Below, piece after piece: positions 1,811 to 31,100 of a DNA stretch of 32,816 nucleotides. Position 1 is the first letter of the stretch, and each line of letters opens with the position of its first letter. The notes under the pieces were generated by a model. The model was not told where the DNA came from and made no database searches. It saw only the letters and a program-made list of their open reading frames with translations. The translations under genes were made by a program, and so were the position numbers. Origin of the DNA: a virus; IMG/VR virus record IMGVR_UViG_3300029922_000210, positions 1 to 32,816 of that record; one strand, 5' to 3'.

Positions 1811-4651
1811 ATGGCAATCAACGTACAATTTAACGGCGCTACAATTTACAAGCCAGGAGCTTACTCTAAGGAATTAATAGACCTTGGCGGCGGTTTCCCG
1901 GTAGGACCAACAGGCTTAGTTGCCATCTTCGGTGAATCAACCGCGGGTGCACCAGGTTCTGCAGTTCCTGACATTTCACAAAACGTTTTCCAAGCTGATC
2001 AGCTTCCAATGATTCGTAGTATCTACGGATCTGGACCGCTTGTCGACGCTTGTACGTTCTTGTTTGCACCTGGTGCAGACGGAGCGATCCCAGGTGGAGC
2101 ACAATCTGTTTACATCTACAAGACAAACGCTTCTACACGAGCAACACTTGCGCTAGCTAACAGCTACGGAAGTTTGCAGTCAAGTGTTTATGGAACTAAT
2201 GGAAATCAAATCACTTACGCAGATGTTGCTGTTCCAGCTCAATTTGCTCAAACAACTTCTTCAGCTCCATTCGATTTAACTGGTGCTCCATTTGACGCAA
2301 TCGTCAGCGGATCTCCACACTTGAATGACGCACTTGCTCAAGAAGCTCAATCTGATGCATCAACTGCTTTCACTACCTTAGGTACTGAAACTGCAACTCC
2401 TATCTCTGCAACCTTAGATGGTCAAACTCTTACTCCTGGTGTTTATAGCACTGGCGCAGCAACCTTAGCGGCTTCTGGAACTGGAACCCTTACCTTCAAC
2501 GGTGCAGGTACTTACGTAATCCAAACTGCTTCTACCTTAACTACTGGTGCTGGTGGAGTTCCTGTAATGACGCTTACTGGCGGAGCTACAGCAGCTAACA
2601 TCTACTGGATCGTAGGTTCTTCTGCAACTATCAACTCTGGTTTCTCAGGCACCTTCCAAGGTAACATCCTCGCTGAAACAAGTATTACAGATACATTAGG
2701 TGGCACAGTAAACGGTAGCTTGATCGCCCTCAACGGCGCAGTTACTATGAGTGCAGCAGCTAACGTATTTGCTCAATCTTCAAACGAACTTGGCGCAGCA
2801 GGTAGTTTCTCAGTATTAGGTGGTTCAGCAGCTACTAACACCGGCGCAAGCGTATTCCACGGTAACGTGGGCGTAAGTCCTGGTACTTCTGCAACCGGCT
2901 TTGGTTCTCCAGCAACTATCGTCGCAAGCGGCAGCTTATCATTTACTCTTCGTATCAACGGAGCATCATCTGCGCTTGACAACGTGTTCACAATGCCTAG
3001 CGGTACTGTTACAAGAGCATTGTTTCAAACTGCTCTTACTACTTCAGGAAACTGGTCATTAGGTCTTCCTTCTGGAATGACTTTCACAGTATCCGGCGGC
3101 TCAGACATGGCAGCGTTTTTAAACATTGCTCAATCGTTGGGAACTAACCCTCAGCGCAATGGACACGGTTTAAACTTTCAGCTTGTTAGCGGAAGCTTAC
3201 TTGCTCCAGTAAATATTCAACCTGGTTTATACGTTTCTGAAACCGAAGATATGGCTGTTATTACTATCAATAACAACGGCACTAATATCAAGGAATCAGC
3301 GACAGTCGGTGGTAACATCGTATTTGAACTTGGTCGTAACGGTGGAGTTGCTCCAGTAGTTACAGTGAATGCTACAAACATGTTGTTAATTAACAACAGT
3401 GCCATTGAGTACACAATCGCTCTCGCAAACTTCCCAACCCTCAATGCTATTGCTAATTACATTAACAGCAGCACTGGCGGAAACTGGAGTGCAGCAGTAC
3501 CAAGCGCATTGTACGGTCAATTAAACCCAAGTGTAATGGATGAAGTTACTAACTTAAGTGCTAACGGTTCTAGCGGGTCTATGCCTGCTCAAATCAAAGA
3601 TGATGCTTACTCTGTACAGCAATTCTTTGGATCGTCAGTAAACGTAAGCTTGTTAACTCCTGCTTCTATCGGTTTACCTGATCCATCTGCAACTACTTAC
3701 TTAGCTGGCGGATTACTCGGTGGAACACAAACCTCTGATATCACCAACGCGTTGACTGCTTTACAAGCCGTTCACGTTAACTCAGTGATTCCGTTGTTCT
3801 CTCGTAACGCTACTCAAGATATTCAGGACATGATCACTGATCCAAGCTCTAACTACACTATCCTTGGTATTCAACAAGCTACAGTGACCTACTTAAGCTT
3901 GATGGCTTCTACTAAGAATCGTTCAGAGAGCCAAGGTTACTTGTCATTGAAAGACACATATTCTAACTGCGTAAACCAAGCTCAAAACTTGGCTAACAGC
4001 CGTGTGCAATTGGTCATTCAAGATATTAACCAAGTTAACTCTCAGGGCGTTGTTCAATGGTTCCTACCTTGGGCAGGAGCTTGCTTACTAGCAGGTGCTC
4101 GCGGTGGTTCACCAATCGGTTTACCGATGACTCACAAGTATTTCAACATGTCAGGCATTCGTCAGACTGCTCAATTGTTGTCAACTCCTGAAGCGAACAT
4201 CGTTCAAGGTTTCAACCCACTTACTCAGTATGATAACGCGATCCAAAACGGTATCACTTTCTGGGAACATCCTAACACTGGCGGATTCCGCTTAGTAGTA
4301 GATAACACTACTTACGGTCAGGATGCAAACTGGGTTCTCAACCGTGGTAACGTTCAATACGCAGCAGACGTTCTTGCTTACGACTTCCGCAACCAATTAG
4401 AGAATATCTATGTTGGTGTTAAGAACACTGTTTCTGCGGCAGAAGTTAAGTCAACCTGCGATGCCATCTTGACCTCTTACTTGGCACAAGGTATCACCGT
4501 TTCAACAACTGATGCTACTAACGGATACAAGCTACTAGTTGTTCAAATCGTTGGTAACACTATCAACATCTCTGTTGTAGTGAAACTTGTCGAAGGTATC
4601 GACTTCGTATTAGCAACTATCACGTTGCAACGTGCTTCTTCAAGCGCTTAA
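1811..4651 (+). CDS. Tail sheath protein with an inserted, circularly permuted DUF3494-like domain
   Basis: The 946-aa protein is the contractile sheath subunit. The N-terminus (residues 1-110) has sheath features: PGAYS, GPTGLVAIFGESTAGAPG and a QSVYIYKTN strand. The C-terminal part (about 690-946) has the conserved sheath core, including WFLPWAGACLLAGARG, SPIGLPMTHKYFN, a WVLNRGNVQYAADV segment and a final beta-rich linking arm. It is much longer than typical sheaths (about 400-660 aa). Residues about 165-365 are a foreign domain resembling ice-binding DUF3494: LDGQTLTPGVY at 202, IYWIVGSSATINSG, then the motif TNTGASVFHGNVGVSPGTS at 342-360. That last motif is normally N-terminal in the family, so the domain looks permuted. 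A strong SD (AGGAGG) sets the start. The gene has its own promoter-like box and terminator, in keeping with high-level expression. Confidence 0.93.
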   Translation: MAINVQFNGATIYKPGAYSKELIDLGGGFPVGPTGLVAIFGESTAGAPGSAVPDISQNVFQADQLPMIRSIYGSGPLVDACTFLFAPGADGAIPGGAQSVYIYKTNASTRATLALANSYGSLQSSVYGTNGNQITYADVAVPAQFAQTTSSAPFDLTGAPFDAIVSGSPHLNDALAQEAQSDASTAFTTLGTETATPISATLDGQTLTPGVYSTGAATLAASGTGTLTFNGAGTYVIQTASTLTTGAGGVPVMTLTGGATAANIYWIVGSSATINSGFSGTFQGNILAETSITDTLGGTVNGSLIALNGAVTMSAAANVFAQSSNELGAAGSFSVLGGSAATNTGASVFHGNVGVSPGTSATGFGSPATIVASGSLSFTLRINGASSALDNVFTMPSGTVTRALFQTALTTSGNWSLGLPSGMTFTVSGGSDMAAFLNIAQSLGTNPQRNGHGLNFQLVSGSLLAPVNIQPGLYVSETEDMAVITINNNGTNIKESATVGGNIVFELGRNGGVAPVVTVNATNMLLINNSAIEYTIALANFPTLNAIANYINSSTGGNWSAAVPSALYGQLNPSVMDEVTNLSANGSSGSMPAQIKDDAYSVQQFFGSSVNVSLLTPASIGLPDPSATTYLAGGLLGGTQTSDITNALTALQAVHVNSVIPLFSRNATQDIQDMITDPSSNYTILGIQQATVTYLSLMASTKNRSESQGYLSLKDTYSNCVNQAQNLANSRVQLVIQDINQVNSQGVVQWFLPWAGACLLAGARGGSPIGLPMTHKYFNMSGIRQTAQLLSTPEANIVQGFNPLTQYDNAIQNGITFWEHPNTGGFRLVVDNTTYGQDANWVLNRGNVQYAADVLAYDFRNQLENIYVGVKNTVSAAEVKSTCDAILTSYLAQGITVSTTDATNGYKLLVVQIVGNTINISVVVKLVEGIDFVLATITLQRASSSA
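2312..2905 (+). repeat. DUF3494-like (ice-binding type) domain, copy 1, circularly permuted, within the sheath
   Basis: This in-frame segment has the order: helix HLNDALAQEAQSDASTAF (residue 170 on), solenoid core from LDGQTLTPGVY to the AANVFAQ at residue 322, then the cap motif from residue 329 to TGF at 364 (2795-2902). In copies 2 and 3 the cap motif comes first, before the helix and core. The 26 bases at 2522-2547 are identical to 30374-30399 in copy 3, which shows recent common descent. The most likely function is surface display on the sheath. Actual ice binding cannot be judged from sequence alone. Confidence 0.85.
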
Positions 4652-4674
4652 TAAGCCTTGACAAATTAGATCTT

Positions 4675-4731: not shown

Positions 4732-5502
4732 ATGGACCAGCTACAAGAACTTTGCATAGCTATTAAAGAAGAGCTGCAAAAGTCTATTACCAATAATCCT
4801 GAGAACAGCGATTACATATATAAAAAGGTTAGAGGTTGGATATCCCCTGCTGGCAAACATCATTTAATAGGTAGAGATGACCATTCGCCTTGGCTCGCTA
4901 ATCATATTAAGTTACCAGAAGGTGAAGACTTCTCTGAAGCATATCGCAAGGGATGGATTGGTATAGGCCACGAAGGCGAGCAATATGCTTCAGTTCATAA
5001 CGATGTATTAAATAACAGTAAGCATCCTGCTACTATAAAACTAAGACAGCTCATGAATGAACACTTTGATCCTAAGTTGCCCATAGATATAGGACCAAAT
5101 CATCACGATGAGGCTACGCAGCAGAAAATATGGAAGGCTCCTATGCCTGATCCACATAATTTTATGCAAACTGGTAAGGTTACACCTATTACTACACCTA
5201 AGTTAAAAAAGAATGACGAACTAGTAAAAAGAAAGTGGACGACTCCAGAGGCTCGTGCTATTAGGATACATGAGCAGAAAGTTGCTGATCGCAAGGTTGA
5301 GCACACTAATACTGGTCAGCGTGGTATAAAAGCCTATACTAGTTCTCCTCATGGTACAGCAGAAGAACAGGCCTACAGAGATTTCAGACCACCTGCTCCT
5401 ATTAAGCATTTTAAGGCTGGATCACCAGAAGTAAAAGCTCATGCTGAAAAATATAAACAGCCAGTTAAAATTGCTAAAAATGGACAGTGGAGCCTTGACT
5501 AA
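4732..5502 (+). CDS. Unknown 256-aa protein, probable accessory insertion between sheath and tube
   Basis: I do not recognise this protein with confidence. The N-terminal part (residues 1-30) is a short helix. Residues about 32-110 contain VRGWISPAGKHHLIGRDDHS, GEDFSEAYRKGWIGIGHEGEQYASVH and a helix ending in LMNEHF; this W/H/D-rich pattern recalls small phage domains of unknown function. From about residue 130 the protein is lysine- and proline-rich and likely disordered. It has no SD and starts 6 nt after a TAGAAT box. Its 3' end overlaps the following HNH gene, and the pair lies between the sheath terminator and the tube promoter, a place where sheath and tube are normally adjacent. The pair probably arrived together. 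A virion accessory or host-interaction role is possible but unsupported. Confidence 0.6.
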   Translation: MDQLQELCIAIKEELQKSITNNPENSDYIYKKVRGWISPAGKHHLIGRDDHSPWLANHIKLPEGEDFSEAYRKGWIGIGHEGEQYASVHNDVLNNSKHPATIKLRQLMNEHFDPKLPIDIGPNHHDEATQQKIWKAPMPDPHNFMQTGKVTPITTPKLKKNDELVKRKWTTPEARAIRIHEQKVADRKVEHTNTGQRGIKAYTSSPHGTAEEQAYRDFRPPAPIKHFKAGSPEVKAHAEKYKQPVKIAKNGQWSLD

Positions 5503-5932
5503 AACTTGTATTAGTTGCAGCACTGCAGAGACTGATAAATGGTACTCAGGACCTACTTGTCGTAGGTGTTATAGATATGCTAGAGATAGTAAGAGACGAG
5601 ACATCTGTAATCAAGAACGAAAAGCTTATCTTAAAGCTAATCCAGGCAAAAGAAAAGAATACGAGCAGCGACATCAAGTAGTTAATAGAGAAACATGGTT
5701 AGCGTCTCAAAAACATAGAGAAGCAAAACATAGGGCCAAGAAGCTTATGGCTACTCCTGAGTGGGTAGATAATGAGGCTTTAAAGCTTATTTATAACAAC
5801 TGTCCACCTGGTCATCACGTTGATCACATTATCCCTTTAAAGAACTCAATAGTGTCTGGGCTACATGTACCCTGGAATCTTCAGTATTTGCCTGCTCTTG
5901 AGAACATAGCCAAGTCTAATAAGTTAACCTAA
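5480..5932 (+). CDS. HNH homing-type endonuclease (first copy)
   Basis: The 150-aa protein has an N-terminal zinc-ribbon-like pair (CISC and CRRC about 15 residues apart), a basic helical middle (KRKEYEQRHQ to HRAKKLMATPEW), and a C-terminal HNH core with GHHVDHIIPL followed by GLHVPWNLQYLP and a final EN-x-x-K-x-NK. This is the usual layout of free-standing phage HNH nucleases that cut DNA and spread by homing. The ATG at 5480 is chosen because the zinc motif follows it closely; an in-frame ATG at 5441 would lengthen the protein by 13 residues. The start lies inside the 3' end of the preceding gene (23-nt overlap). The HNH region matches the second copy at 17399 and shares a 20-nt identical DNA run (5861-5880 with 17840-17859). 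Confidence 0.88.
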   Translation: MDSGALTKTCISCSTAETDKWYSGPTCRRCYRYARDSKRRDICNQERKAYLKANPGKRKEYEQRHQVVNRETWLASQKHREAKHRAKKLMATPEWVDNEALKLIYNNCPPGHHVDHIIPLKNSIVSGLHVPWNLQYLPALENIAKSNKLT

Positions 5933-5939
5933 GTTGTGA

Positions 5940-5947
5940 TATATTAT
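5940..5947 (+). promoter_or_regulatory. TATATTAT promoter-like box of the tube gene
   Basis: The AT-rich sequence TATATTAT lies just after the HNH stop and 72 nt before the tube ATG. A start about 7-12 nt downstream would put the 5' end of the mRNA at or next to the hairpin at 5954-5975. No clear -35 element is visible. Confidence 0.4.
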
Positions 5948-5953
5948 ATCTAA

Positions 5954-6013
5954 TTCGTAATAATTAGGTTACGAAGTTAAATTCAAGGTAGCTAGAACCG
6001 AACTAGCAAGGAT
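5954..6013 (+). promoter_or_regulatory. Structured leader of the tail tube mRNA
   Basis: The leader contains a perfect 7-bp stem-loop (TTCGTAA 5954-5960, 8-nt loop, TTACGAA 5969-5975) and a 5-bp stem-loop (GCTAG 5991-5995 with CTAGC 6003-6007). The second ends directly against the SD AAGGAT at 6008-6013. A 5'-terminal hairpin commonly stabilises abundant mRNAs, and the second could tune ribosome access. Both roles are inferred. Confidence 0.45.
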
Positions 6014-6019
6014 ATTCAA

Positions 6020-6595
6020 ATGGCAGGCAAATTACCAAGTTTTATCACAGGCGCCAACGCCAAAATTACCGCAGGCGGTGTTACGTTTGCATACGCAGCA
6101 GACGTTTCTTATAACGTCTCAGTTGACACAGTACCGATCGAGACAATGGGTCGTTACGAAGCGGTGTCAAACGAACCGGTTAACTACTCAGTAGCTGGCG
6201 AACTTTCAGTAGTTCGTTACACTGGTATCGCTAACAAGAACAACATGGCTGGAGCCGCAGTAAACGGTAACGGTCTTGGTAACGTAAATTACAAAACTGG
6301 TGGTAATGCATCAGATGAGATCAATCCAGGAAATATCCTTGTGTCTCAAACTTGGGATTTAAACGTGTATCAAAAAATTCAATCTGGTAACCCAGCAACG
6401 ACCTCACCTGCTGAGACCAATTCAGGAGCTCCTACAAGTGGTGCAGTAATCACCATCACTGATTGCCGTTTCAATCGTAAATCAGCTGGTATTAACAAGC
6501 GAGGTATCCTCGTTGATCGTTTATCATTCGTAGGAATTCTAGCATACGATGATTCATTCCAAGCAGGAACATCTGGAGACGTCGATCTTAGCTAA
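6020..6595 (+). CDS. Tail tube protein
   Basis: The 191-aa protein has the size and beta-rich pattern of a myovirus tail tube subunit, which stacks as hexameric rings inside the sheath. Key segments are FITGANAKITAGG near the N-terminus, GRYEAVSNEPVNYSVAGELSVVRY (about residues 43-68) and WDLNVYQK (about 112-119), followed by a DCRFNRKSAGINKRG strand pair. The first 70 residues align by eye with those of the next gene at 6854, which looks like a paralogue. The SD (AAGGAT) and structured leader precede it and a strong terminator follows it, so it is probably transcribed as a highly expressed single-gene unit. In most myoviruses the tube follows the sheath directly; here two accessory genes separate them. 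Confidence 0.85.
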   Translation: MAGKLPSFITGANAKITAGGVTFAYAADVSYNVSVDTVPIETMGRYEAVSNEPVNYSVAGELSVVRYTGIANKNNMAGAAVNGNGLGNVNYKTGGNASDEINPGNILVSQTWDLNVYQKIQSGNPATTSPAETNSGAPTSGAVITITDCRFNRKSAGINKRGILVDRLSFVGILAYDDSFQAGTSGDVDLS

Positions 6596-6618
6596 TCTCT
6601 AAATTCAGTACAAAGTCA

Positions 6619-6655
6619 AAAAGGGCTGGCAGAAATGCTGGCCCTTTTATTTAGA
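6619..6655 (+). terminator. Intrinsic terminator after the tube gene
   Basis: A 13-bp stem (6619-6631 with 6636-6648) closes a GAAA loop at 6632-6635; the A-rich and T-rich flanks make it a typical rho-independent terminator. It matches the sheath terminator in stem length and loop. Confidence 0.9.
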
Positions 6656-6818
6656 ATAAGTGTACTTCAGCAGTTTGGCCAGCTTCTGTTAATATATAAA
6701 CGCCAGCAATTATTCTCAAGCTTATTAACAGTAAAAGCACCTTTTGAATAGGTGTATCTCTAAGTGTCACTATCTCACCAAGTTGTAAATCAGTGACTTT
6801 CATGGTAATTTTTCTCAT
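6651..6818 (-). CDS. Doubtful small minus-strand ORF (55 aa)
   Basis: The only minus-strand reading frame that does not lie over a confident gene encodes 55 aa, with a second in-frame Met at residue 6. It starts MRKITMKVTDLQLGEIVTL, has a hydrophobic middle (VLLLLISLRIIAGVYIL) and ends in a polar strand, AGQTAEVHLF. The first and last parts read like real protein; the middle could be a membrane segment or the product of small frame errors, since another frame gives FTVNKLENN there. There is no clear SD. It is convergent with the tube terminator. It may be a small gene, a decayed remnant or chance. Confidence 0.3.
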   Translation of the reverse strand: MRKITMKVTDLQLGEIVTLRDTPIQKVLLLLISLRIIAGVYILTEAGQTAEVHLF

Positions 6819-6840
6819 ATTATTCTTAAGCCCTTATACC

Positions 6841-6847
6841 TTATAAT
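6841..6847 (+). promoter_or_regulatory. TTATAAT box abutting the start at 6854
   Basis: TATAAT (6842-6847) lies exactly 6 nt before the ATG at 6854, and there is no SD in between. Transcription from it would start at or next to the A of the ATG, giving a leaderless mRNA. No -35 element is visible. Confidence 0.5.
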
Positions 6848-6853
6848 TAACCC

Positions 6854-7465
6854 ATGGCCGGTGTAAGACCTTTTTTTGTAACAGGAGCAAATGCTAAGTT
6901 AAAGCTTAATGGCAAGACTATGGCGTTCCTAACTGACTTCCAATGTTCTGTGCAGATAGCACACCAAACTCCCCACGTGCTGGGCGTATACGAAGGTGTC
7001 TCTGTAGAACCTTTGTCCTACAATGTAAACGGCATGTTTAGCATCATCAGATATGTTCACAATGCCCATGAGAATATCGGTGGAGTTGCGCCTCCAGGTA
7101 TTGCTGCTAATGATGCAGGTAATGGAGTCGGTAACTGGGGCTCAGTATGGGGTGGCGGAGTTTTAGGTAACCTACCATCTACTCTTGGAAATCCTTTCGC
7201 AGGTGGTGCTGACGGTAGAGCTAACGAAGCTCTTGACCCAAGTACATACTCTCAAGGAACTACATTTGACATTGAAGTTTATCAGAAGAATCCAAATGGC
7301 GATCCACTTGGAGTTATGAAAGTTAGACAAGTTAGAATTACTAGAGCAGATTTTGCTCTCAGCAAACGAGGTCCTGGTCAAGACAAGTTTGAGTTCACTG
7401 CTCTATACGTAGACGGTGATGCTTATCAAGCTAGACCATCCGGTACAGGACAACAGAATAGTTAA
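6854..7465 (+). CDS. Tail tube-like paralogue (203 aa)
   Basis: The protein aligns with the tube protein along its N-terminal third: FFVTGANAK against FITGANAK, GVYEGVSVEPLSYNVNG against GRYEAVSNEPVNYSVAG, and FSIIRY against LSVVRY. The FDIEVYQKN segment matches WDLNVYQK. It differs in a glycine-rich loop at about residues 75-115. By analogy with T4, where gp48 and gp54 share the gp19 tube fold, it may form the first or last ring of the tube, or decorate it. Its start has no SD and follows a TATAAT box by 6 nt. The next gene begins 2 nt after its stop. Confidence 0.72.
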   Translation: MAGVRPFFVTGANAKLKLNGKTMAFLTDFQCSVQIAHQTPHVLGVYEGVSVEPLSYNVNGMFSIIRYVHNAHENIGGVAPPGIAANDAGNGVGNWGSVWGGGVLGNLPSTLGNPFAGGADGRANEALDPSTYSQGTTFDIEVYQKNPNGDPLGVMKVRQVRITRADFALSKRGPGQDKFEFTALYVDGDAYQARPSGTGQQNS

Positions 7466-7467
7466 TT

Positions 7468-8127
7468 ATGCCAAATACAGGTTTTGATAACAGCCCAGGC
7501 TTTGCAGAGAATTTAGTAAATAACGCCGCTAGTAACGTAGCTGGTATCTTCTCTCTTCGTCCTAATGCAAAATTTTTAAGTGGACCTAGAATCACTCTTA
7601 AAGTAAACGGTAAATTAGTTGGCTTCGCTTTCGGCATCAGTTGGACTATCAACACTACAGTGACTGAAATTAATACTATCGATGACTATCTTCCACATGA
7701 ACTTGCTCCTCAACGTGTAACTGTAGAGGGAACTATATCTGCACTTCACATTCCAGGAGTTAGTGCCTCAACTGAAGGATGGCAAGCAGACGTTCTATCA
7801 TTCTTATTCGCTCCATATATCTCTATTCAAGCTATTGATTCTGCAACGCAACAAGTTGTATTTGCTACAGATAAGGCAATGATTACTTCACGTACCGAAG
7901 ATTTAAGAGTAGACTCTCTCGCTAATGTAACTCTAAGATGGAGAGCCATTGGATTTATGGATGAGAAGCAACCTACTATTCCACCTGCTAATAACTACAA
8001 TAACACTGTGCAAGCTGCCGCAATTGCTAATAATGGTATAAGTAATGCGGGTCCGCTTCCCGCTAACAATTTAAACCCTCTTCCAACGAATTTAAGCAAT
8101 GTTAGTTCTGGCACTTTGGGTGCGTAG
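7468..8127 (+). CDS. Second tube-like / tube-initiator candidate (219 aa)
   Basis: Residues 30-165 are beta-rich and resemble a tail-tube fold: ITLKVNGKLVGFAFGISWTINTT, then VTVEGTISALHIPG, and a final strand pair ending TLRWRAIGF. The order of segments parallels the two preceding proteins, but identity is low. The C-terminal 50 residues are rich in Asn, Pro and Ala and likely disordered. It starts 2 nt after the stop of the 203-aa paralogue, so the two are co-translated. It may be a tube initiator, a tube cap or a neck-side ring. No enzyme motif is visible. Confidence 0.55.
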   Translation: MPNTGFDNSPGFAENLVNNAASNVAGIFSLRPNAKFLSGPRITLKVNGKLVGFAFGISWTINTTVTEINTIDDYLPHELAPQRVTVEGTISALHIPGVSASTEGWQADVLSFLFAPYISIQAIDSATQQVVFATDKAMITSRTEDLRVDSLANVTLRWRAIGFMDEKQPTIPPANNYNNTVQAAAIANNGISNAGPLPANNLNPLPTNLSNVSSGTLGA

Positions 8128-8133
8128 TATAAT
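8127..8133 (+). promoter_or_regulatory. TATAAT box before the chaperone-position genes
   Basis: TATAAT (8128-8133) touches the stop codon of the previous gene. The ATG at 8154 is 20 nt further on, with GAGG (8142-8145) as a plausible SD. This is the leadered form of the recurrent box. Confidence 0.4.
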
Positions 8134-8153
8134 GCTAGTACGAGGTTTAGTAC

Positions 8154-8555
8154 ATGGAATTACCAAATAATGAAGCAGTCTTCAGCGTTGACGTTGAAGG
8201 CGAAACCACATTCAAAAGATACGACGGTCAGTTCACAGTTCGCTGCGTTTTGAACATGGGTCAAAAGCACGCTATGGAGCTTGAAAAGACTAGACTTCTT
8301 GGGAACTATTCAAGTCCTACAGAAGGTCTAGCGGGTATTGCTGTTATCTTTGCAAATCTTAGAGCAAAAATAACAGATGGACCTGAATGGTGGAAACAAA
8401 GTGCCGGCGGTTCCAATATCAAAGATGAAAATATCCTAGTTGAACTCTACACTAATCTTCAAAGGACAGAGACAGAATGGCGACAGAAGGTAAGGGATCT
8501 AGCGAATCCACCAGTACCGGTGGAGAACAGCTCTTCAGCACCGCAGACGACATAA
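8154..8555 (+). CDS. Probable tail assembly chaperone, upstream partner
   Basis: The 133-aa protein has an N-terminal beta hairpin (FSVDVEGETTFKRYDGQFTVRCVL), then a helical part (MGQKHAMELEKTRLLG, LAGIAVIFANLRAKI) with TDGPEWWK, and a Pro/Ser-rich tail. This layout and its place between tube and tape measure fit the chaperone that coats the tape measure during tail assembly (lambda gpG-like role). Its last 79 nt are shared with the next gene in the -1 frame. Many phages make a gpG-T fusion by -1 slippage at such overlaps, but I found no clear X-XXY-YYZ heptamer here, so the second protein is probably started separately. Confidence 0.58.
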   Translation: MELPNNEAVFSVDVEGETTFKRYDGQFTVRCVLNMGQKHAMELEKTRLLGNYSSPTEGLAGIAVIFANLRAKITDGPEWWKQSAGGSNIKDENILVELYTNLQRTETEWRQKVRDLANPPVPVENSSSAPQTT

Positions 8556-8989
8556 GACGGATTGCTGCCAGAAACGCTAGAGCAGAATTAAACAACGACG
8601 AGCAGCTAACGCTTTTCTTAAAGAGTTGGTGGTCTAAAACATACAATAGACCACTCAAAGATCCTCTTTTACTATCATACACATTAGAAGATTTACTGTA
8701 CGAATTCTACGATAAAGTTGAACGAAGACTTGCTGAAGAAGAACGCAATGATCAGGGTGAGATTAACCAAGAGATTGCTAAAGAACAGGCTGACCTTGAT
8801 TGGGCTGAACAGATGGAGCAAGAAGACCTAGCTAACATGAAGGCTAAGGCCGCCAATCTAGAGACAGCTAAGGTAGAAGATCCTACGAAGGATCCCGACA
8901 ATATCAAATGGATGGAAGAGCAGATGAAACTCGCTAAGCAGCAGTTTGGTGAGACATTTGGCAACGACATTGAAGAAGACTTTGAATGA
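8477..8989 (+). CDS. Probable tail assembly chaperone, downstream partner
   Basis: The 170-aa protein starts inside the previous gene in the -1 frame, with AAGGA (8462-8466) about 10 nt upstream as a possible SD. The first 25 residues, which lie in the overlap, are Ser/Thr/Gly-rich. Residues 25-85 are helical with SWWSKTYNRPLKDPLLLSYT and LEDLLYEFYDKVERRL. The rest is a strongly acidic and Gln-rich coiled-coil-like helix (RRLAEEERN to DIEEDFE). The pairing with the upstream overlapping gene and the tape measure downstream suggests the second chaperone component. Its TGA overlaps the ATG of the next gene (ATGA). Confidence 0.55.
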   Translation: MATEGKGSSESTSTGGEQLFSTADDIRRIAARNARAELNNDEQLTLFLKSWWSKTYNRPLKDPLLLSYTLEDLLYEFYDKVERRLAEEERNDQGEINQEIAKEQADLDWAEQMEQEDLANMKAKAANLETAKVEDPTKDPDNIKWMEEQMKLAKQQFGETFGNDIEEDFE

Positions 8990-9276
8990 ATAAACTACCA
9001 GACAACCCATATTCTAAATTTCGATATGACAACAACTTTAACATTAAGTTCAGAGTTGAGAACGGCCACATTAGTATGTATGGGGTAGAGTGCCGCTCTT
9101 TTCAGGACAATATTAGAGATCAGATGTCTGAGGTACCCAGCACTTGGGTCAATAATGGCGCCACTTGGGTAGTCAACAATGTCTATAAATGCAATCAGAT
9201 AAACAAGGTTGACCAACCCGTGGTTAATGATAAGAACGCTTCGAAGTTAACTTTCTTTAAGCTTTTTAAGTTATAA
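8986..9276 (+). CDS. Unknown 96-aa protein
   Basis: The start is set by the ATGA overlap with the preceding stop, which implies translational coupling. The protein contains NPYSKFRYDNNFNIKFRVENG, a tryptophan pair in TWVNNGATWVVNN, and a basic hydrophobic C-terminus (KLTFFKLFKL). I recognise no family. The asparagine-rich, beta-like character would suit a small structural or assembly protein. The promoter-like box of the tape measure gene overlaps its last codons. Confidence 0.55.
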   Translation: MNKLPDNPYSKFRYDNNFNIKFRVENGHISMYGVECRSFQDNIRDQMSEVPSTWVNNGATWVVNNVYKCNQINKVDQPVVNDKNASKLTFFKLFKL

Positions 9277-9277
9277 T
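9271..9277 (+). promoter_or_regulatory. TTATAAT box before the tape measure gene
   Basis: TATAAT (9272-9277) overlaps the stop codon of the 96-aa gene and is 8 nt from the ATG at 9286; no SD lies between. The 12-nt sequence TAAGTTATAATA (9267-9278) recurs identically at 14771-14782. Confidence 0.5.
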
Positions 9278-9285
9278 AGCCTTAT

Positions 9286-12003: not shown

Positions 12004-12006
12004 TCT

Positions 12007-13761
12007 ATGGCGCTAAATCAAACAAATAATTTTAGGATTGTAACTCCGCATGCGGCTATAATCATATGGAACTACGACAATAGACTTGGTTCAGATCCAA
12101 CGAATGCTGGGACTATCAATGATATCAATGAAACTATATTGAGCACATTGTCTCTTCAATCTATTCAAACATCTAAAAGTAAGAGTTCACCAGCCGGTTC
12201 ATTCACTGTAAACTTAGCACCTACCAGAGATTGGGTTTCCCAAATTACTGCAGGTAGTTGGTGTGCTATCTTAATGTCTAATAACCCAATCTCTCCAACT
12301 CAACTAGCTAAAGCTGATCCTAAGTTTGTTAAAATGATAGGCAAGATTGAAAGCGTTAGAGCAGATATTCAAATTGATGAAGAAGGCGCAAGACATACCA
12401 CTTACACAATGACGGGAACTGATTGGGGTTATATATTTAATAATGTTCTATACATTGACAATCTAATCTCAGCTGCTAACACTCCTACCAATCAAGGTAA
12501 TGCAATAGCTATTGCATTACAGAAACAACTGTTTGGCGATGGCAACACTCCTCAAAGTTTTAAAGTAGTCGATAATTTAGTAGCTTTATTAGGTATATTT
12601 GGAAGTTCTTCTCCAGAGTTAGATAAAGCTAGTGGTGCCATCAATCGAATAAATAAATCTATATACGATTTCCTTATCCCTACCAAGATGGCACAATATT
12701 TTAACTTTGTAGATGGAGATGGAAATATAAATCCCTCTACCAAACTCTCTGACCTATTAACTCTTCAAGTAGGTAAGTTAGTTGCTCAGGATCAGTATGC
12801 AGATACTAATGAGGCTTACGGCTTCATAGATCCATTCTCACTTCAAGGAACTAATACATTTTGGCAGATCATGATGGATAATAGCAATCCAGCTCTGAAT
12901 GAAATGTACAACGAGATTGACTGGGAAACTAATAACAGTGGTACAGTAGGGCCCTCATTAACTATATTCAATAGAATAAAACCTTTCTCTTACCGCACGG
13001 ACCTGCAGAGTTCTGCTGCTGCTAATAAGCTTAAATCTCCTTTCACTTTATTAAAGACCCACGTTATAGATAACGTTAAAGTGACTTCTGTTAACATTGG
13101 AACTAACTGGAGAGACAAATATAACTTTGTTGAAATTAGACCTTTGTTTCAAGACTTCGAGATATTGAACGGTTGGACAGCACAGAAATCACAGGGATCA
13201 GACACAGCAGCGTTCAATAGAGAAGGCTTCAGACCCATGATCGTGGGAACAAAACAATTTCCTGTCGATATCTCTACGACTTCATCAGCGTCCTCTGCAC
13301 AGTACAACGCTGACATGTTAACTAGCTGGGTAGAGCTTTTAAAAGAATGGTTCTTTGATACGCATAGGCTTTTAAATGGAACCCTCGTAATGAGAGGCAC
13401 TACTGAGTACATTGGCGTAGGGAATAACATTTTATTTGAAGCAGGTTTAATTAATCCCACAATGAACTTGAACCAGGGCGCAAACACTAATACTAACACT
13501 AACTACGTATTAGCGCACGTAGAAAATGTAAACCATACTTTTACTGTGAGCGGCGATGGTGGACGAACCTATATAACTACAATTCAGTTTGTAAGAGGCT
13601 TAGTAGTCAACAAGGCAAATGGTAACTATACACTAGTAGGAAGTGGTTCATTAGATGAACTTGCATCCGATCTACAGAATCAAAAATATAAAAACACAGT
13701 TAACACGGTTAGCACATCGGATCCTAGCGACCCAGATCCTAACAAGGTACGTGGACAATGA
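12007..13761 (+). CDS. Baseplate hub protein (gp27 / gpD-like)
   Basis: The 584-aa protein has a hub-like N-terminal region, with SFTVNLAPTRDWVSQITAGSWCAILMS (about residues 65-92) and a following MIGKIESVRADIQIDEEG strand pair, then YTMTGTDWGYIF. This pattern is typical of late-control-D/gp27-type hubs, in which the early domains copy the tube fold and form the trimeric ring that holds the spike. The C-terminal region (about 440-550) includes LVMRGTTEYIGVGNNILF and VENVNHTF, which also occur in hubs. It starts 3 nt after the tape measure stop, and its TGA overlaps the ATG of the spike gene by four bases. The assignment rests on segment order and context. Confidence 0.72.
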   Translation: MALNQTNNFRIVTPHAAIIIWNYDNRLGSDPTNAGTINDINETILSTLSLQSIQTSKSKSSPAGSFTVNLAPTRDWVSQITAGSWCAILMSNNPISPTQLAKADPKFVKMIGKIESVRADIQIDEEGARHTTYTMTGTDWGYIFNNVLYIDNLISAANTPTNQGNAIAIALQKQLFGDGNTPQSFKVVDNLVALLGIFGSSSPELDKASGAINRINKSIYDFLIPTKMAQYFNFVDGDGNINPSTKLSDLLTLQVGKLVAQDQYADTNEAYGFIDPFSLQGTNTFWQIMMDNSNPALNEMYNEIDWETNNSGTVGPSLTIFNRIKPFSYRTDLQSSAAANKLKSPFTLLKTHVIDNVKVTSVNIGTNWRDKYNFVEIRPLFQDFEILNGWTAQKSQGSDTAAFNREGFRPMIVGTKQFPVDISTTSSASSAQYNADMLTSWVELLKEWFFDTHRLLNGTLVMRGTTEYIGVGNNILFEAGLINPTMNLNQGANTNTNTNYVLAHVENVNHTFTVSGDGGRTYITTIQFVRGLVVNKANGNYTLVGSGSLDELASDLQNQKYKNTVNTVSTSDPSDPDPNKVRGQ

Positions 13762-20900: not shown

Positions 20901-23900
20901 ACAAACTAATACTATCAACATTCCACTAGCTAGAACAGGTCAAATCAATTCAGGTGATCCAGGTGGCGGTGGTTCATTCATACCTACTACTACAGAATTT
21001 TCTGCTAATGACTACGACAATCAACCAGGTATCGATTTCTCAAATCAAAACACTTGGAGCACAACCTTAAACAAGACTAACTTCAATGACTATGCAGTAT
21101 GGTTCACAGCTAGAAACTGGTACTCTTCTGGTGGAGTTGGATCTGGCAACGGGGCAATGATTGTTAGAGCGGCTGACTTCGGTCCTAACGGTAACTTCTT
21201 GCGTTTCAACATGCAGTATCCGACAATACCAAATCAAGCTGCAACTACATCGTTTGTGAACACTCCATCGTTTACAACCTTCTCCTACTTTTTCGGTTCA
21301 GGAGCAGCAAGACCTACAGCCTTGATTGCAACAGACACAATCACCGTTAAAGGCCCTTATCCTAATGCAGCTACTAACTTTCCTAACGGTACTGTTTCTA
21401 GCGGCAATTACTACGACTATACATTCAGTGCTGGTAATTTCAGCTCTGTTGTAGTAGGTGATGTAATCAGTGTTACATCTTCATCTGGCGTATCTAACGC
21501 TAACAGCGGTCAATTCAGCGTACAGAATGTTAGTGGAAACACTATTCGTGTAATGAATTCTATCGCCTCTGTTACAGGAGTTGGAAATCCAGAAGTAGAT
21601 ACAATTACAACTGTAGGCGACATACTTGGTACTCCTACATCTTACGGCTTTACTGCTGTAGCTGATACCTCAGGTTCACTCAACGGAACATACTTCTTAA
21701 TTTACAATACAGCAGGTTCTGTCGCTGTATGGATCAATGAAAATGGTACAGCGGGACCTCCAAGTGTAGGAGCTAATGCTTACTTAATGGTTGGCACTAT
21801 CTTACCTAATGACACCGCTACAACTGTGGCCGGTAAGATCGCAGTAGCCATCAATCAAAATAGTTCATTCGTAGCTACAGTTAGTGGATCTGGTCTACTA
21901 ATCACAAACGTTCAAAATGGTGTACTACCTATCGCTGACGTAGGTACATCTGGATTTTCAATTACACCACCAGGCGGCGGACCTCTAGCTACAGCATCTA
22001 CTTATGCTATCTTAGGTGCATCAACTGTAACCAATACTGGCTTTAGCGTTCTTACTGGAGACCTCGGCTTATCTCCTGGAACTTCTATTACTGGTTTCCC
22101 ACCTGGAACTTATTCTGGTACAGAAAACATCGCGAACACTGCAGCATCTACGGCACAAGCGCAAGCGCTTTCAGCATATAACACTTTTGCAGCAATGTCA
22201 GCTACTTCTATCAGTTCAGTCTTAGATGGTCAAACCCTTACTCCTGGCGTATACAAGGAGACAATAGGAACATTTAACTTGGCGACGTCTGGACCAGGTA
22301 CGCTTACATTAAATGGCGCAGGAACCTACGTGTTTCAATGCGCTAGTACGCTTGTTACCGGTGCCGGTGGAATACCTACAATCACCTTAACTGGCGGAGC
22401 TACAGCAGCAAATGTATACTGGATCGTTGGCTCTTCAGCCACCATCAATTCAGGTAGTGCTGGTACCTTCCAAGGTAACATTATAGCTCAAGCCTCTATT
22501 ACCGACACAATCGGCGGAACAGTGAACGGTAGCTTGATTGCTCTTACGGGTGCTGTAACATTAAGTGCAGCAGCTAACGTAGTAGCTCAACCTGGCAACA
22601 GTGGTCCTGTAGGCCAAACTGGAACAAACAACGATTCATTGACTGGTAAATATTTCATCATATACGACAATGGTGGTCCAGTATCAATCTGGTTCGATAT
22701 TGGTAACCAAGGAATATCGGAGCCATACGATGGAGCATACAGATCAATCAGAGTATCTACTTTAACTGCAGGAGCTAGTGCAAACACAGTAGCTTTAGCA
22801 ATTCAAGCAGCAGTAACAGGTGACGCTTCATTTGGAACTCCAGCAGTTTCAACTAATGTAGTTACTATTACAAATACTTTCAACGGCAATGTTCCTGCTG
22901 GAAACGCTGGAACCTCTGGCTTTACAGTTTCATCTGTTGCTGGTTCATCAGCTACTCCAGAAGTTATAAACAATCCTGTTGGTCTAAGCATATTCCCACT
23001 TACAGGTGTTTCAACTTTAAACATCTCTACCACGATCAACAACAGTACCTTAATGTCTGCTACCCCAGTAGGCAATAGTGCTCTCACTATCTCGCTTGCT
23101 ACACAAGAAGAGACTGCGGCCACATTAGCTTATGGATACACTCCAGGAAATAGTTACATTGGAATGTACGACGGCGTTAATTGGGTTAAGACATTTGAAA
23201 ATCCAAACCCTAACTTTACAATGAAGATGCCGTTCGTTCTACAAGGCGCACAACCATCTATATATTCAATGGATACAGCACCTAACTACAATGTAGCGAC
23301 TAACGGTGAATTATTCAAACTCATTCCAGTAACTGTACAAAACTTATACCATCAGTTTACACAGCCAGCTCTTTCACAATTACCTATCGTTGCCACAGTT
23401 GACATTGCTGATGATAGAAAAAATGTTCAGATACAATCAAAGCAACTTGGTTCTGCTGGTGCAGTAGAAGTTCTTGGTGGTACAGGTAACCAATCAAAGA
23501 TGTACATTCAAACTCCAGCTATCGTTGAAACAGACGGAAGTGGAAGTTACTTAACAGTTCAGGTGCCAGCCTTCCCAGATACATTCAGCGTGGGTGACAC
23601 AGTTCTATTAGAAAACACTGCAGGAGTAGCAAGACTTAACCGTCTACAGTCATCAGACACTATTACCACAGTAAACTTAAACCCTGTTACAAATGCCATT
23701 GAATACGAGTACAACCCTAAGAGCGTAGGTATAGTTTCTGGAACTGCATTCACTATAACTGATGTAGGATCAACATACTCTCCAGCTTGGCCTGCTGGTT
23801 TCGTTTGGAGATGGACAGCTACCGGCTCAGGAATTAATTTCTCTACAGTGAATCCAGGCGACCTTCTTTATGCATTCGGTACAACCGGTTGGTCTCAGCA

Positions 23901-25653
23901 GAATTTAGCTAAACCATCTGGCGATGGAGTAGTTTCAGGTCTTCCAATCGTTGCCGTAAACATTGGTTCTAACTATGTTGATGTTATAAATCCTTTTGGC
24001 GTTGCTATGTCTTCAACAACTGTTGGAGCCGGAACAGTTCAAATCTGTCCAACACCGATCATCCAATGGACATTAGCGCACGCAGCTTACGTCCCAGTAG
24101 CTACATTAAGCCGTACATCTAACGTTGTGACAGTGTTTACATCAACTCCGCACTTCCTAAATAGTGGAGATACTATTGACCTACGTGATAGCACTAACAT
24201 ACCAGATGGAGTTTACACAGTTACAGTCGTAGGACCTACTCAGTTAACGTTCTCTCTATCAGGATCAAATTTCACTGAAACTCCTACATACGCTTCATTG
24301 ATTCAGTCTACATTGACTCAGAGTCGTTATAGAATCCAATCTCTTGGCTTCAACAACTTAATGAGATTGAATTGTCAAAATGGACAATCACCGAGCTTCG
24401 TGGATTGCGGCGTTGCTGTAGATGACTACATATCTTTAAGTGGAACTACATTTGCTTCTAACAATAACGGACTATTCAGAGTATTAGCTGTTGATAACAA
24501 CTCTATTATCTTCTTGAATTCATCTGGTACAGATCAATTGAACACATTGAGACCAATGAATAACCAAGGTGTGGATGTAGTATTTACTACAAACACTAAT
24601 ACCATCACTGGTGTTACTGGTGCATTCAAGTATATACAAGTTGGAGATTGGGTAAAGAAACTAGCTGACCCTGAAACATATTTCTTACAAGTTTTAAGTT
24701 TAAATAACTCTAATCCTGCTCTAGCTACTCAAATCACTTTAGGTGGTAACTATGCAGGAACAAGTGAAACAACAGTGGGCGTGATCTATAGAGAATCAAC
24801 AGATTACGATCAAGGTGTGTTCTTAAATAGTGCTAACGATATTGCTATTTACGAAGGTGACTCCGTAACAGTTGGCGACACACTATTCGTACAGAATATA
24901 GTTGAAGCAGGTTGGTTTAATATTAACAATACAGGTAACTTTAATATCGTTGAATACGGTACAGAATCTAACTACAGACCGTTCTTAAGAGTTATTAACT
25001 CTGCTGCAGTAGTTTCAAACACTGGTGACCTATCTGTTAGTTCAGATGGTTTCTACATAATAGAAAGTCTTGCTAATAAGTTCTATACTATAAGAGAAGT
25101 GAAGTATGCAGCATTAGATGGCGTCAACAGCAATCTAAGAGACATATTCATAACTCCGTATAGCAGAGACTATAAATTCACTCCTGCAAATAACTCTAGC
25201 ATAACTCACTTAGGTAAGTTAGGTTACAGTAACAACGTTGTAATAGGTACAGATGGATACACATACTATACAGGGTTGCTACAAAAAGTTCAACGCATAG
25301 TTGACGGCTTTGAGCCAGATGCTGCAGATTTCCCAGGACAAAGAGCTGTAGGAAGTGCGATTGAAACATTGCCTCCATTGCCGTTCCAAGTTAATCTTGC
25401 CCTCACTGTGATCACAAATGCCGGTGTTAACTTAGGCGATGTTTCAAACAGCATTCAATCTACTATCATTAACTACATTGATGGCTTAGCTGTTGGAGCT
25501 CCTATTGTTATGTCACAGATCATAGCTGACATTCAGCCTATCACTGGAGTTGCTTCGGTTGTGTTCACTAATCCTGTACCAAGTACACAAAGTATAACCT
25601 TAGCAAGTAACGAGAAAGCAATAATAAGCCCTAACAACATAAGCTTGTCATAA
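17911..25653 (+). CDS. Giant baseplate J / gp6-like wedge protein with a DUF3494-like domain
   Basis: The 2580-aa protein has baseplate J features at both ends. At about 260-310 are LTGGTDVETDQDLRDRIQSY and an ARGTEAAILAAVINVSD segment, the signature of the family. The final 120 residues (LGDVSNSIQSTIINYIDGLA, GAPIVMSQIIADIQPITGV) form the usual C-terminal domain. Between them lie about 1900 residues of beta-rich modules, against 300-660 aa for normal members. These include a STDFVNISAAQVAEIVVAIN module (about 395), two copies of a ~100-residue module (1257-1357 and 1577-1678) and a DUF3494-like domain between them (1360-1560). gp6-type proteins form the baseplate iris, so the inserted parts probably stick out. 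Translation is likely coupled to the HNH gene through the TAATG overlap. Confidence 0.85.
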   Translation: MASQINIQSYNQFLGSMIRSIIANTPLNDINQGSVLLTILEAAASNDFENNTAILSLLNLLDIQTVSDSDLDNRAADYGLTRLAAMQASGNVSFFNNSITKQSTSLYVIKPAPIAGQTVIYVNNTTGWANSGTLYVGRGTANFEGPIAYSSITTFATYSQVNLSSALQNNHLISDSVVNAQGQPDRLIAAGTTISIPANNQTPEIDYITLRDAVLPAGETVVSNVAVIALIAGSIGNAPINTITQFQTAPFTGAAVSNTSALTGGTDVETDQDLRDRIQSYTNTLARGTEAAILAAVINVSDSSDNNTVVSAVMTEPPSIGQPSILYIDNGSGFQPSYAGQSVDTLLTNATGKEQFLQLANYPVTRPQVVNTGIGPFTLIDGSFLGVSVDGIEEIVYFHSTDFVNISAAQVAEIVVAINNQAKLFSARLTNNSANILIYPDAFNAETIQVTAELTTDDPSLYANSLLQFPTSQFSFIELFQNNTRLRERTISAQLETAPFGSWNVSAPGDLTISVDNTPQQDRTFSLNLFPGASSFTTLTLNEWVAAFNNQFAGLTATATAAQTMQLSSNQSGANSSLNVAGGTLLASLFPTQPTTSVGQSSGFILNRQTGNLEILTTIKPGDNITAGIVDARGFVNSTVTTSGTYDVSTDSFGRAAQLVVVADSTFCTQRAENIPIGSTITISNPSGNVMRIMSSTLTAFPFLMPGDFIYITQRTSAWLSSNNTGLFKVIDKGFHTTAGTDTYVDVLNAGNLATPSITPQTVTVVDPADIQSFTTDGYPQVWLGTFTTNPPIATLTNIVDSLNNNLINVVASIYQSNSVKLTSTTENGGSIAIPVVMGTSAVALFTSTSTAQFGNPPLIAAIVSSKSLLTHFKIDPPTNKNTWLNRQVFDDSKGSLTANAIPSAPPYSDPYSETLQSTGELNTTHVDYSSIISFTDGNNRKQLRSIAAFLPSDSVGTQEALARTSLDNITGDQFEIVRPLQLSASDSVAVVIDQNPQTNTINIPLARTGQINSGDPGGGGSFIPTTTEFSANDYDNQPGIDFSNQNTWSTTLNKTNFNDYAVWFTARNWYSSGGVGSGNGAMIVRAADFGPNGNFLRFNMQYPTIPNQAATTSFVNTPSFTTFSYFFGSGAARPTALIATDTITVKGPYPNAATNFPNGTVSSGNYYDYTFSAGNFSSVVVGDVISVTSSSGVSNANSGQFSVQNVSGNTIRVMNSIASVTGVGNPEVDTITTVGDILGTPTSYGFTAVADTSGSLNGTYFLIYNTAGSVAVWINENGTAGPPSVGANAYLMVGTILPNDTATTVAGKIAVAINQNSSFVATVSGSGLLITNVQNGVLPIADVGTSGFSITPPGGGPLATASTYAILGASTVTNTGFSVLTGDLGLSPGTSITGFPPGTYSGTENIANTAASTAQAQALSAYNTFAAMSATSISSVLDGQTLTPGVYKETIGTFNLATSGPGTLTLNGAGTYVFQCASTLVTGAGGIPTITLTGGATAANVYWIVGSSATINSGSAGTFQGNIIAQASITDTIGGTVNGSLIALTGAVTLSAAANVVAQPGNSGPVGQTGTNNDSLTGKYFIIYDNGGPVSIWFDIGNQGISEPYDGAYRSIRVSTLTAGASANTVALAIQAAVTGDASFGTPAVSTNVVTITNTFNGNVPAGNAGTSGFTVSSVAGSSATPEVINNPVGLSIFPLTGVSTLNISTTINNSTLMSATPVGNSALTISLATQEETAATLAYGYTPGNSYIGMYDGVNWVKTFENPNPNFTMKMPFVLQGAQPSIYSMDTAPNYNVATNGELFKLIPVTVQNLYHQFTQPALSQLPIVATVDIADDRKNVQIQSKQLGSAGAVEVLGGTGNQSKMYIQTPAIVETDGSGSYLTVQVPAFPDTFSVGDTVLLENTAGVARLNRLQSSDTITTVNLNPVTNAIEYEYNPKSVGIVSGTAFTITDVGSTYSPAWPAGFVWRWTATGSGINFSTVNPGDLLYAFGTTGWSQQNLAKPSGDGVVSGLPIVAVNIGSNYVDVINPFGVAMSSTTVGAGTVQICPTPIIQWTLAHAAYVPVATLSRTSNVVTVFTSTPHFLNSGDTIDLRDSTNIPDGVYTVTVVGPTQLTFSLSGSNFTETPTYASLIQSTLTQSRYRIQSLGFNNLMRLNCQNGQSPSFVDCGVAVDDYISLSGTTFASNNNGLFRVLAVDNNSIIFLNSSGTDQLNTLRPMNNQGVDVVFTTNTNTITGVTGAFKYIQVGDWVKKLADPETYFLQVLSLNNSNPALATQITLGGNYAGTSETTVGVIYRESTDYDQGVFLNSANDIAIYEGDSVTVGDTLFVQNIVEAGWFNINNTGNFNIVEYGTESNYRPFLRVINSAAVVSNTGDLSVSSDGFYIIESLANKFYTIREVKYAALDGVNSNLRDIFITPYSRDYKFTPANNSSITHLGKLGYSNNVVIGTDGYTYYTGLLQKVQRIVDGFEPDAADFPGQRAVGSAIETLPPLPFQVNLALTVITNAGVNLGDVSNSIQSTIINYIDGLAVGAPIVMSQIIADIQPITGVASVVFTNPVPSTQSITLASNEKAIISPNNISLS
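21679..21981 (+). repeat. Baseplate J internal module, copy 1
   Basis: About 100 residues starting LNGTYFLIYNTAGSVAVWIN and ending VGTSGFSITPPGG. It matches copy 2 at 22639-22944: L-x-G-x-YF-x-IY, a short V-x-x-W strand, a TA-x-x-VA-x-x-I helix and an A-x-x-GTSGF end. The DUF3494-like domain lies directly after it. Confidence 0.75.
21988..22590 (+). repeat. DUF3494-like (ice-binding type) domain, copy 2, normal order
   Basis: About 200 residues in the usual order: cap motif ASTYAILGASTVTNTG and GDLGLSPGTSITGFPPG, then a helix (STAQAQALSAYNTFAAM), then the solenoid core from LDGQTLTPGVY through VYWIVGSSATINSG and TVNGSLIALTGAVTLSAAANV. The core is nearly the same as in the sheath copy. The 22 bases at 22525-22546 are identical to 30560-30581 in copy 3. 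Confidence 0.9.
22639..22944 (+). repeat. Baseplate J internal module, copy 2
   Basis: It starts LTGKYFIIYDNGGPVSIWFD and ends AGTSGFTVSSVAG, aligning with copy 1 at 21679-21981. The two modules bracket the DUF3494-like domain, so that domain was inserted between tandem repeats or carried one copy with it. Confidence 0.75.
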
Positions 25654-28192: not shown

Positions 28193-31100
28193 TTGGCTGT
28201 ATTAGGACGCTTACTTATTAGCTCTGCGGAGCGACTAGATCTCCCTGATTTACTAAGTATCGATAGTTACTCAGCAGGGGACTGGAAATACTTCATTGAG
28301 ACCTTGGTAGGTGAGGACACTCCTTACATTATCAAAGGCTTCGATGTTGCTAATCCAGCTAGTGCAATTGGAACTCAAAATTGCGCTATCAATATCGCTG
28401 ACTCCGCAATGTACTACCCAGGCTCTGCTGCGGGATCATTTTACTATGGTCTACCAGTCGGAGATCCTAACGCTCAACCATTAGTTCCTGCATTAATTAA
28501 AAACGCTACAAATTATGTCTACCTTGTTTTTACAACTATAGGTGCTGCAGCGGATACAAGAGCTTTCTGGGATCCAAACGCTAACGGAGATACCGGCGGC
28601 GAGTTCACTCAGGAAGTAAACACTGAATCAGTAATTCAAGTTCAAGTCAACGTATCAACAGGTTCATTCCCAGATAATACAGTTCCAGTCGCAATCATAA
28701 AGGTTGGTCCTTCAGTTATCACAAGTATTGAAGACGCAAGACCGATGATGTTCCGTCTCGGTACCGGCGGTATCGATCCTAATCCTGCTAATAGATTTCA
28801 ATGGCCAGCTTTACCAAGTGCTCAATACGAGCAGATGGAAACCCCAATCACCCTTACTTCCTCATCAGGACCAAATCCATTTCAAGGTGGCGACAAGAAT
28901 CTCACCTCAATGAAAGAGTGGATGGACGCGGTAATGACGCAGCTTGCCAACCTTGGCGGTTCGCAATACTGGTACGAAGATAACTCTACCTTTAGCTTAA
29001 TAAATTTATTCAACGATCTCAATATAACTTTCTACTCTAAAGGAAAGTATAAACACAGTTCTTCTGTTCCAGGTGAATTAACACTCACTGAAAATCTAGT
29101 AATCAAGAGCACAAACTCACCGCAAGATATCACTATTCAAGCAGGAACTATCGACATTCCTGATGAATATGTTGGGTATATCTCATTAGCAAATACACAA
29201 CCTGTTAACTCTCTCAATGAAGCAATTCTATGGACTAACGGATCCACTTATCTCAATACTCCTAACGGATCTATTGGATTCTTTTCAGAGTTAAGTGCCG
29301 GTGATTGGGTTAGTGCAGTAGGCGATCCAAGCAACTATACATTACAGGTTGAACAATTCTATAGTGGTACAAATGGTACTGGCTCTGTTACTACTGCAGC
29401 CAACGCTAAATCAGTATTACTAAGCGGAGCTTATCAAGGATTAACTTCGGTAACATTAGCTACATTTAATCAAGGTATCTATCCAATAAGCGACATACAG
29501 ATTCAAGCTAGATCTAATCCAGCTATCGCTGAAGCCGGTGGAAACTTCCTTTGGTTAGTTCTACGTAGCGATACGATCGAGGGAATCGGAAGCATAAGTG
29601 CTGTTACCGTTTCTGGTACATTAACCGTAACCGATGGTTCAGCTGCTTCTCCAACTGGAACAGTTGCAGAAGTTATTGCAACAGGACATGGTTTAATAGA
29701 TGGAGATCGTATCACTGTAACTGCCCCTGTGGGACAAGCAGGAACATATACAGTTGAAGTCATCGACGCCAACACATTCTTCTTTAATACAACGGACACT
29801 GCTACAGGATCTTTTACTGGTTACTACGGATTATGTACTACAGTGGCTACAGCAACTGAATCTGCTAATAACGGGTTCGAGTCTGGTGAAACCATCATCA
29901 TCGGTGGAACTACAAACTTTAACGGCGAGTACGTAATCAACTATAGATCTCCAACTCAATTTCAATTTCCAATTGCTGGGCTAGTACCTCCTAGTCCACC
30001 AGCAGGAAGTCCAGTTATGGCAACAGCTGCAAGCTATGCAGTTTTAGCTAACTCAACAATCACCAACGTAGGTTCAAGTGTAATCACCGGAAATCTTGGT
30101 TTGTATCCTGGAACCTCTGTTACTGGTTTTCCACCAGGGACAGTTTCCGGCACAGAGAATATTGCAAACCCTGCGGCAATGCAAGCTGAGATTGATGCCA
30201 CAGCAGCTTACACTGATCTATCTACACGTACAGCAACCATAATTCCTTCATCTCTTGACGGTCAAACTCTTAGTGCAGGTGTTTATAAATTTAGTTCTGG
30301 TTCAGCTTCATTAGCGACTTCTACAAACGGTACATTGACCTTCAACGGTAGTGCGACTGATATCTTCGTAATACAAACTGCTTCTACCTTAACTACTGGC
30401 GCCGGTGGAACTCCAACTATTGCGTTTACAGGTGGAGCATTAGCATCAAATCTATATTGGGCTATCGGTTCTTCTGCAACATTAAATGTTAGTGGAACCG
30501 GTACCTTCGAAGGAACTTTGATTGCTCACGCCAGCGTAACAATAGATGGTGGTTCGGTAAACGGTAGCTTGATTGCTCTTAATGGTGCAGTCACTATCAG
30601 TGCAGCATCTGCAATTACATTAGGAACATCTGTTGGACCTCCTGCTCCTGAATCAGCTGGTACAGCAACATTAGCTCGCCTTGACGTTCGTTCTGAAGAA
30701 GGTATCACTAAGGTTGTTCAAGGTGAAACTATCGACATCGGTGAAGGTGACTCTGATAACATTCAAAGATTCATAGGCATGAGCTCTCTTGCAGAGACAT
30801 ATCCTGATTACTTCACTGGTCCATATAACACTCTTTGGAACCTAGCAAATTATAACTCTTCTATAACCGATAATTTAACAATCCGTAGTGCGAAACTCAC
30901 TGCGATGATGGCAGACAAAGCGCAAGATAAAACTGTTAAGTATCTATGTAATGCTTCGACTGCGGTTAATACTACAAGCGGTAGCGCACAGCAACTCACT
31001 TTCTTACCAGCGAGCAGCACATTAACGATCTTACAACCAGGATCTCCTGGTAACTCAGTAATCAGTTTACCTTCTGGTTCACCCGGAATATCACTATTAA

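Follow-up and report, generated by a model that had tools for sequence, protein, structure and literature searches.

The DUF3494 or type 1 ice-binding proteins (PF11999), among them the protein of structure 6eio, AnpIBP (7bwx) and TisAFP, are secreted single proteins built as a solenoid with a flat Thr/Ser face. Their canonical chain order is coil 1, a long helix and coils 2 to 6, and in the crystal structure from which our coil names are taken the coils stack in space as 1-6-5-4-3-2, an arrangement described as unusual and unique to the family (PMC7966756). For AnpIBP the positions of the ice-binding face have been named, and mutation of S153 and T156 cuts activity to 17% (PMC7277481). Among phages, the closest parallel is provided by Ig-like and other optional domains, including those of multidomain sheaths, which are exchangeable on sheath, baseplate and fibre and for which weak adhesion has been proposed (PMC9230969). 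Viral members of PF11999 have been reported in three Arctic viral contigs, where they were interpreted as auxiliary genes for host cryoprotection (PMC11515562), and DUF3494 proteins are also present in Hyperionvirus, a giant virus of eukaryotes in which the protein is not part of a tail. Our literature search yielded no description of DUF3494 in phage tails or of a permutation of the fold, an absence that is not proof as most subscription papers lay outside the search.

The window, that is the whole stretch of DNA analyzed here, is a single viral contig of 32,816 bases in which PF11999 domains are inserted into virion proteins, all encoded on the plus strand. The tail sheath protein (946 residues, positions 1811-4651) matches phrog_279 (E 5.7e-26), and Foldseek aligns its AlphaFold2 model with the sheath of phage 812 (E 1e-15). 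The baseplate J protein (2580 residues, 17911-25653) is recognized by PF04865 (E 3.5e-16) and phrog_6 (E 5.7e-30). An earlier reading made from the sequence only had named these two proteins correctly, whereas the "fibre" of that reading, a structural protein of 1411 residues with a TTG start (28193-32428), matches no family and is termed fibre-like here on the basis of its position and of a homologue in Myxococcus phage Mx1. Over its residues 13-261 it shares 31% identity with a hypothetical protein of that phage, and the Mx1 counterpart likewise sits downstream of baseplate J. Mx1 is in fact the nearest isolate both for this N-terminus and for the sheath core (32%), and its gene order is similar; its tail module differs in that PF11999 is found nowhere in the genome (OR576727.2), including the 953-residue sheath. 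The window further contains a tail-tube-initiator-like gene, baseplate genes and a gene for an 833-residue protein. Two free-standing HNH/endonuclease VII-like genes with a common identical run of 20 nt lie behind the gene that follows the sheath (5441-5932) and directly before baseplate J (17399-17911), and are possible homing genes adjoining two of the decorated genes. A link between such genes and the cassette proved too weak to be maintained, as they accompany four of 25 cassette-bearing sheaths and two of 47 others.

All three domains score far above the curated PF11999 cut-off of 28.7 bits, with matches at 30041-30607 (133.7 bits), 22009-22572 (132.9 bits) and 2294-2755 (101.5 bits), and each contains the LDGQTLxxGVY, YWxxGSSAT and VNGSLIAL motifs, in agreement with the sequence-only reading. 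The domains of the fibre-like protein (30020-30625) and of baseplate J (21994-22590) conform to the standard order. As read from the sequence, the latter is flanked by two copies of a module of about 110 residues (window positions 21597-22950, residues about 1229-1680) with the pattern YFxIYxxxGxVxxW ... DTAxTVAxxI. Another small module is common to residues 2206-2304 of baseplate J and 328-420 of the fibre-like protein (BLASTP E 2e-7).

The copy in the sheath is a circularly permuted DUF3494 domain and as such a variant of the PF11999 family. Its chain begins with profile positions 44-204, and positions 1-64 follow as a second match at 2813-3013. The cassette as a whole (205 residues, 2315-2929) consists of a first part with the long helix and coils 2 to 6, i.e. 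the native middle and C-terminus (2315-2788, delimited by alignment and by the secondary structure of the AlphaFold2 model), and a second part in which the native N-terminal coil 1 and the cap loop have been relocated C-terminally behind a linker of about four residues (2789-2929). In L045, the coil-1 segment profile reaches 41 bits at residues 332-370 of the same sheath. The domain had earlier been placed at 2312-2905; its presence is borne out, but it extends to about 2929 and the changed order had been overlooked. Comparison with shorter sheaths of 72-77% core identity, from which the cassette is missing, reveals an insert of about 205 residues between "...SSAPFDLTG" and "SLSFTLRING...", and since these cassette-less sheaths align on both sides of one block, this block represents an entire domain with rearranged parts. 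The stacking order 1-6-5-4-3-2 puts coil 1 beside coil 6, such that the permuted chain, helix-2-3-4-5-6-1, follows the spatial order of the coils, and the prediction is therefore an unbroken solenoid with the fold retained. The permutation would bring both chain ends to one end of the solenoid, and a folded protein could thereby accept the module in one of its loops.

Structure prediction, carried out on the sheath copy, gave the DUF3494 solenoid that had been anticipated. AlphaFold2 modelled the permuted domain with a mean pLDDT of 91.9 and a pTM of 0.90, the coil-1 segment reaching values of about 77-93, and judging from these confidence scores and DSSP, coil 1 is predicted to pack on coil 6. 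In Foldseek, 154 columns of the model superimposed on the ice-binding protein 6eio at 1.9 Å; a span of around 150 columns corresponds roughly to the unpermuted part, as is to be expected when a permuted domain is compared sequentially. For the full sheath (pLDDT 73), the model matched the sheath of phage 812 and gave separate matches to ice-binding proteins. The six-coil triangular solenoid with its long helix is thus assigned to the sheath copy by AlphaFold2 and Foldseek and to the other copies by sequence similarity to solved structures. Alternatively, the sheath might contain two truncated tandem copies, with the core of the first followed by coil 1 from the second, or the arrangement might stem from faulty assembly, and tandem partial copies do exist, for example in the baseplate J protein of L095. 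We consider this reading highly improbable and largely refuted, because 25 sheaths from many assemblies have this order, each time with a single short linker, the core and cassette of the window sheath are 100% identical in three other contigs, and the core and coil-1 pieces are complementary and predicted to fold as one domain. In the L095 protein (5739-12605), a full DUF3494 domain and two partial ones that complement each other stand in tandem (residues 752-1317), possibly a picture of how a permutation arises by duplication.

Among 72 distinct sheaths of the window family, 25 carry the cassette, always permuted and never in standard order, and 47 lack it; the 25 records include a few near-duplicates, about 22 being clearly distinct. 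As the sheath tree requires at least seven gains or losses, the cassette is an optional insert that was repeatedly gained or lost. Order was called for each copy with separate coil-1 and core profiles. All 14 copies in fibre-like proteins are standard. Those in baseplate J comprise 15 standard and two permuted copies (one of them a partial tandem), one that is flanked on both sides and two that are truncated; one of the baseplate copies, that of L107, was at first taken as a standard domain with an extra coil 1 and proved to be permuted. In other proteins 37 standard and two permuted copies were counted, along with four cellular ones lacking a scorable coil 1.

Within the family, two deep sheath lineages carry the cassette, at sites that are adjacent to one another. 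In the second, deeply diverged lineage, which includes contigs of 162 kb and 166 kb, the permuted form lies one strand-pair further on, after "..RLNGG..VITLSS". In L067, a non-sheath protein of 542 residues, a permuted cassette lies within a hairpin of a module, whereas proteins homologous to L067 have a standard copy placed behind this module. The L067 domain clusters with the permuted sheath copies in the domain tree. Location and grouping together indicate that the cassette appears to move between proteins in permuted form. The module that houses the L067 copy is of the same kind as that flanking the baseplate J domain of the window. A single permutation event would be compatible with the AU test, in which a joint clade of permuted copies was not rejected (p 0.27) under earlier, less exact order labels with L107 counted as standard, but the free tree requires five changes, so that the permutation may have arisen more than once. 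Permutation is not a strict rule for all sheaths: L151 (7767-10115) and L147 (7341-10757), which belong to other sheath families, hold DUF3494 in standard order, so that the fold has entered sheaths on separate occasions and insertion into a sheath does not require permutation. A different insert of about 72 residues (YTFTxxxATVNAGAxY...) is present at an earlier site in the sheaths of L052 (1733-4177) and L085, pointing to more than one insertion hotspot.

Taken over whole phages, DUF3494 tends to be present or absent together. None of 18 contigs (40-177 kb) with a cassette-less sheath has any PF11999 copy, whereas nine of ten cassette-bearing contigs encode at least one further copy elsewhere (Fisher 1.4e-6, a nominal value since the contigs are related). 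Several queries gave no match among 50,697 records of isolate phages, although the same method finds 33 plasmids, and no PF11999 match was obtained for Synechococcus phage S-SKS1, which is mentioned in a paper. In a library of viral structures the Hyperionvirus DUF3494 proteins were the only convincing matches. The nearest cellular relatives found (L154-L157, 47-49% identity) stem from ammonia-oxidizing archaea, namely Nitrosotalea and Nitrososphaeraceae bins, and bear an N-terminal stretch resembling a signal peptide.

Two identical DNA runs had led to the proposal that the domains were recently copied within the genome. Both runs are exact, and no longer repeats occur in the window: 26 nt at 2522-2547 recur at 30374-30399, and 22 nt at 22525-22546 recur at 30560-30581. 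The conclusion drawn from them is not borne out. In a tree of 91 domains the fibre copy joins its counterparts in other phages (identities up to 92%), the sheath copy clusters with permuted domains from sheaths, and the baseplate copy falls into a poorly resolved phage group; a single clade of the three was rejected (AU p 1.8e-18), and with it a recent duplication of the whole domain within this genome. At identical residues, codons are shared at a fraction of 0.60 between sheath and fibre copies, 0.49 between sheath and baseplate copies and 0.40 between baseplate and fibre copies. Since the mean of 2241 between-contig control pairs is 0.36 (SD 0.06) and none of them reaches 0.60, local gene conversion between sheath and fibre copies is suggested, with the 26-nt run as a possible tract. 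The sequences are thus best fitted by old copies with some later local conversion.

Taken together, a mobile cassette of the ice-binding fold resides in sheath, baseplate J and fibre-like proteins of several contractile-tailed phages. That one module decorates these three parts of the tail, in a use comparable to that of Ig-like phage domains, had been proposed at the outset and is upheld by the PF11999 matches and the predicted fold. Like Ig-like domains, the module is an optional insert in several structural proteins; it differs in being a solenoid and not an immunoglobulin beta-sandwich, in being permuted and in its nearly all-or-none occurrence per phage. We regard as the best overall explanation, with a probability of roughly 0.6, that the cassette, permuted in the sheath family of the window, forms a multivalent surface-binding coat of the tail. 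In sheaths, extra domains are positioned away from the tube, and a contribution to adhesion or stability has been proposed for them (PMC9230969). On this basis the modules would sit on the tail exterior, each virion probably bearing more than a hundred of them. Through their conserved flat Thr/Ser face they would then attach the virion to ice, to a polysaccharide of the host or its matrix, or to both, in a role similar to that suggested for Ig-like domains of other phages.

When the AnpIBP face positions (PMC7277481) were mapped onto the phage copies through the alignment, about 87% of the residues were Thr, Ser, Ala or Gly and 0.4-1% were charged, and the positions varied less than the remainder of the domain (entropy 0.78 vs 1.43). 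The equivalents of S153 and T156 belong to the SSAT motif, which hardly varies. The alignment hence supports a preserved binding surface, though it does not prove ice as its ligand: a similar flat Thr/Ser face is kept in the ten cellular relatives, and conservation may reflect the family rather than ice binding in the virion. Putatively, ice is the single most likely ligand, albeit at less than even odds. Virions coated with active ice-binding domains would be held at ice-water interfaces or protected during freezing, as would agree with the conserved face and SSAT positions, with ice-binding proteins as the nearest solved structures and with the cryoprotective role assigned to the Arctic PF11999 genes; against it stand the similar face of the cellular relatives and the occurrence of DUF3494 in substrate-binding proteins (PMC12337378).

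Next in rank, and in our view doubtful, is recognition by the face of a regular polysaccharide belonging to the host or its matrix, which would aid adsorption in the manner of phage Ig-like domains. Copies in baseplate and fibre-like proteins besides the sheath would suit such a function, Ig-like extra sheath domains have been proposed to bind cell-surface carbohydrate (PMC9230969), and bacterial DUF3494 domains are sometimes fused to exopolysaccharide-related sorting motifs (PMC9957290). A receptor-binding surface would be expected to vary, however, whereas this face is unusually conserved, and it lacks the charged or aromatic residues that sugar-binding sites typically show. Less probable still is a structural or cementing role, with the domain stiffening the tail or tying adjacent subunits together and having no external ligand; the extra domains of the phage 812 sheath do contact their neighbours and may stabilize the disk (PMC9230969), but the module studied here turns up in proteins that are not related to one another, at positions without correspondence, and close relatives may have or lack it. 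Returning to the surface-binding coat, its most far-reaching form, in which a permuted ice-binding protein that spread as a tail cassette turns the contractile tail into a multivalent ice- or interface-binding rod for capture at ice-water boundaries, is tentative and on balance unlikely.

If the proposed coat is real, phages have adopted an ice-binding fold as a reusable particle decoration and the fold has been permuted in nature, which bears on the odd coil order of DUF3494 and would offer protein engineers an ice-binding scaffold insertable into loops. It would also inform ideas on viral surface attachment, with whole lineages carrying the coat on several parts of the tail or being entirely without it. 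Viral PF11999 genes that are now labelled as serving host cryoprotection may need to be re-read as parts of the virion.
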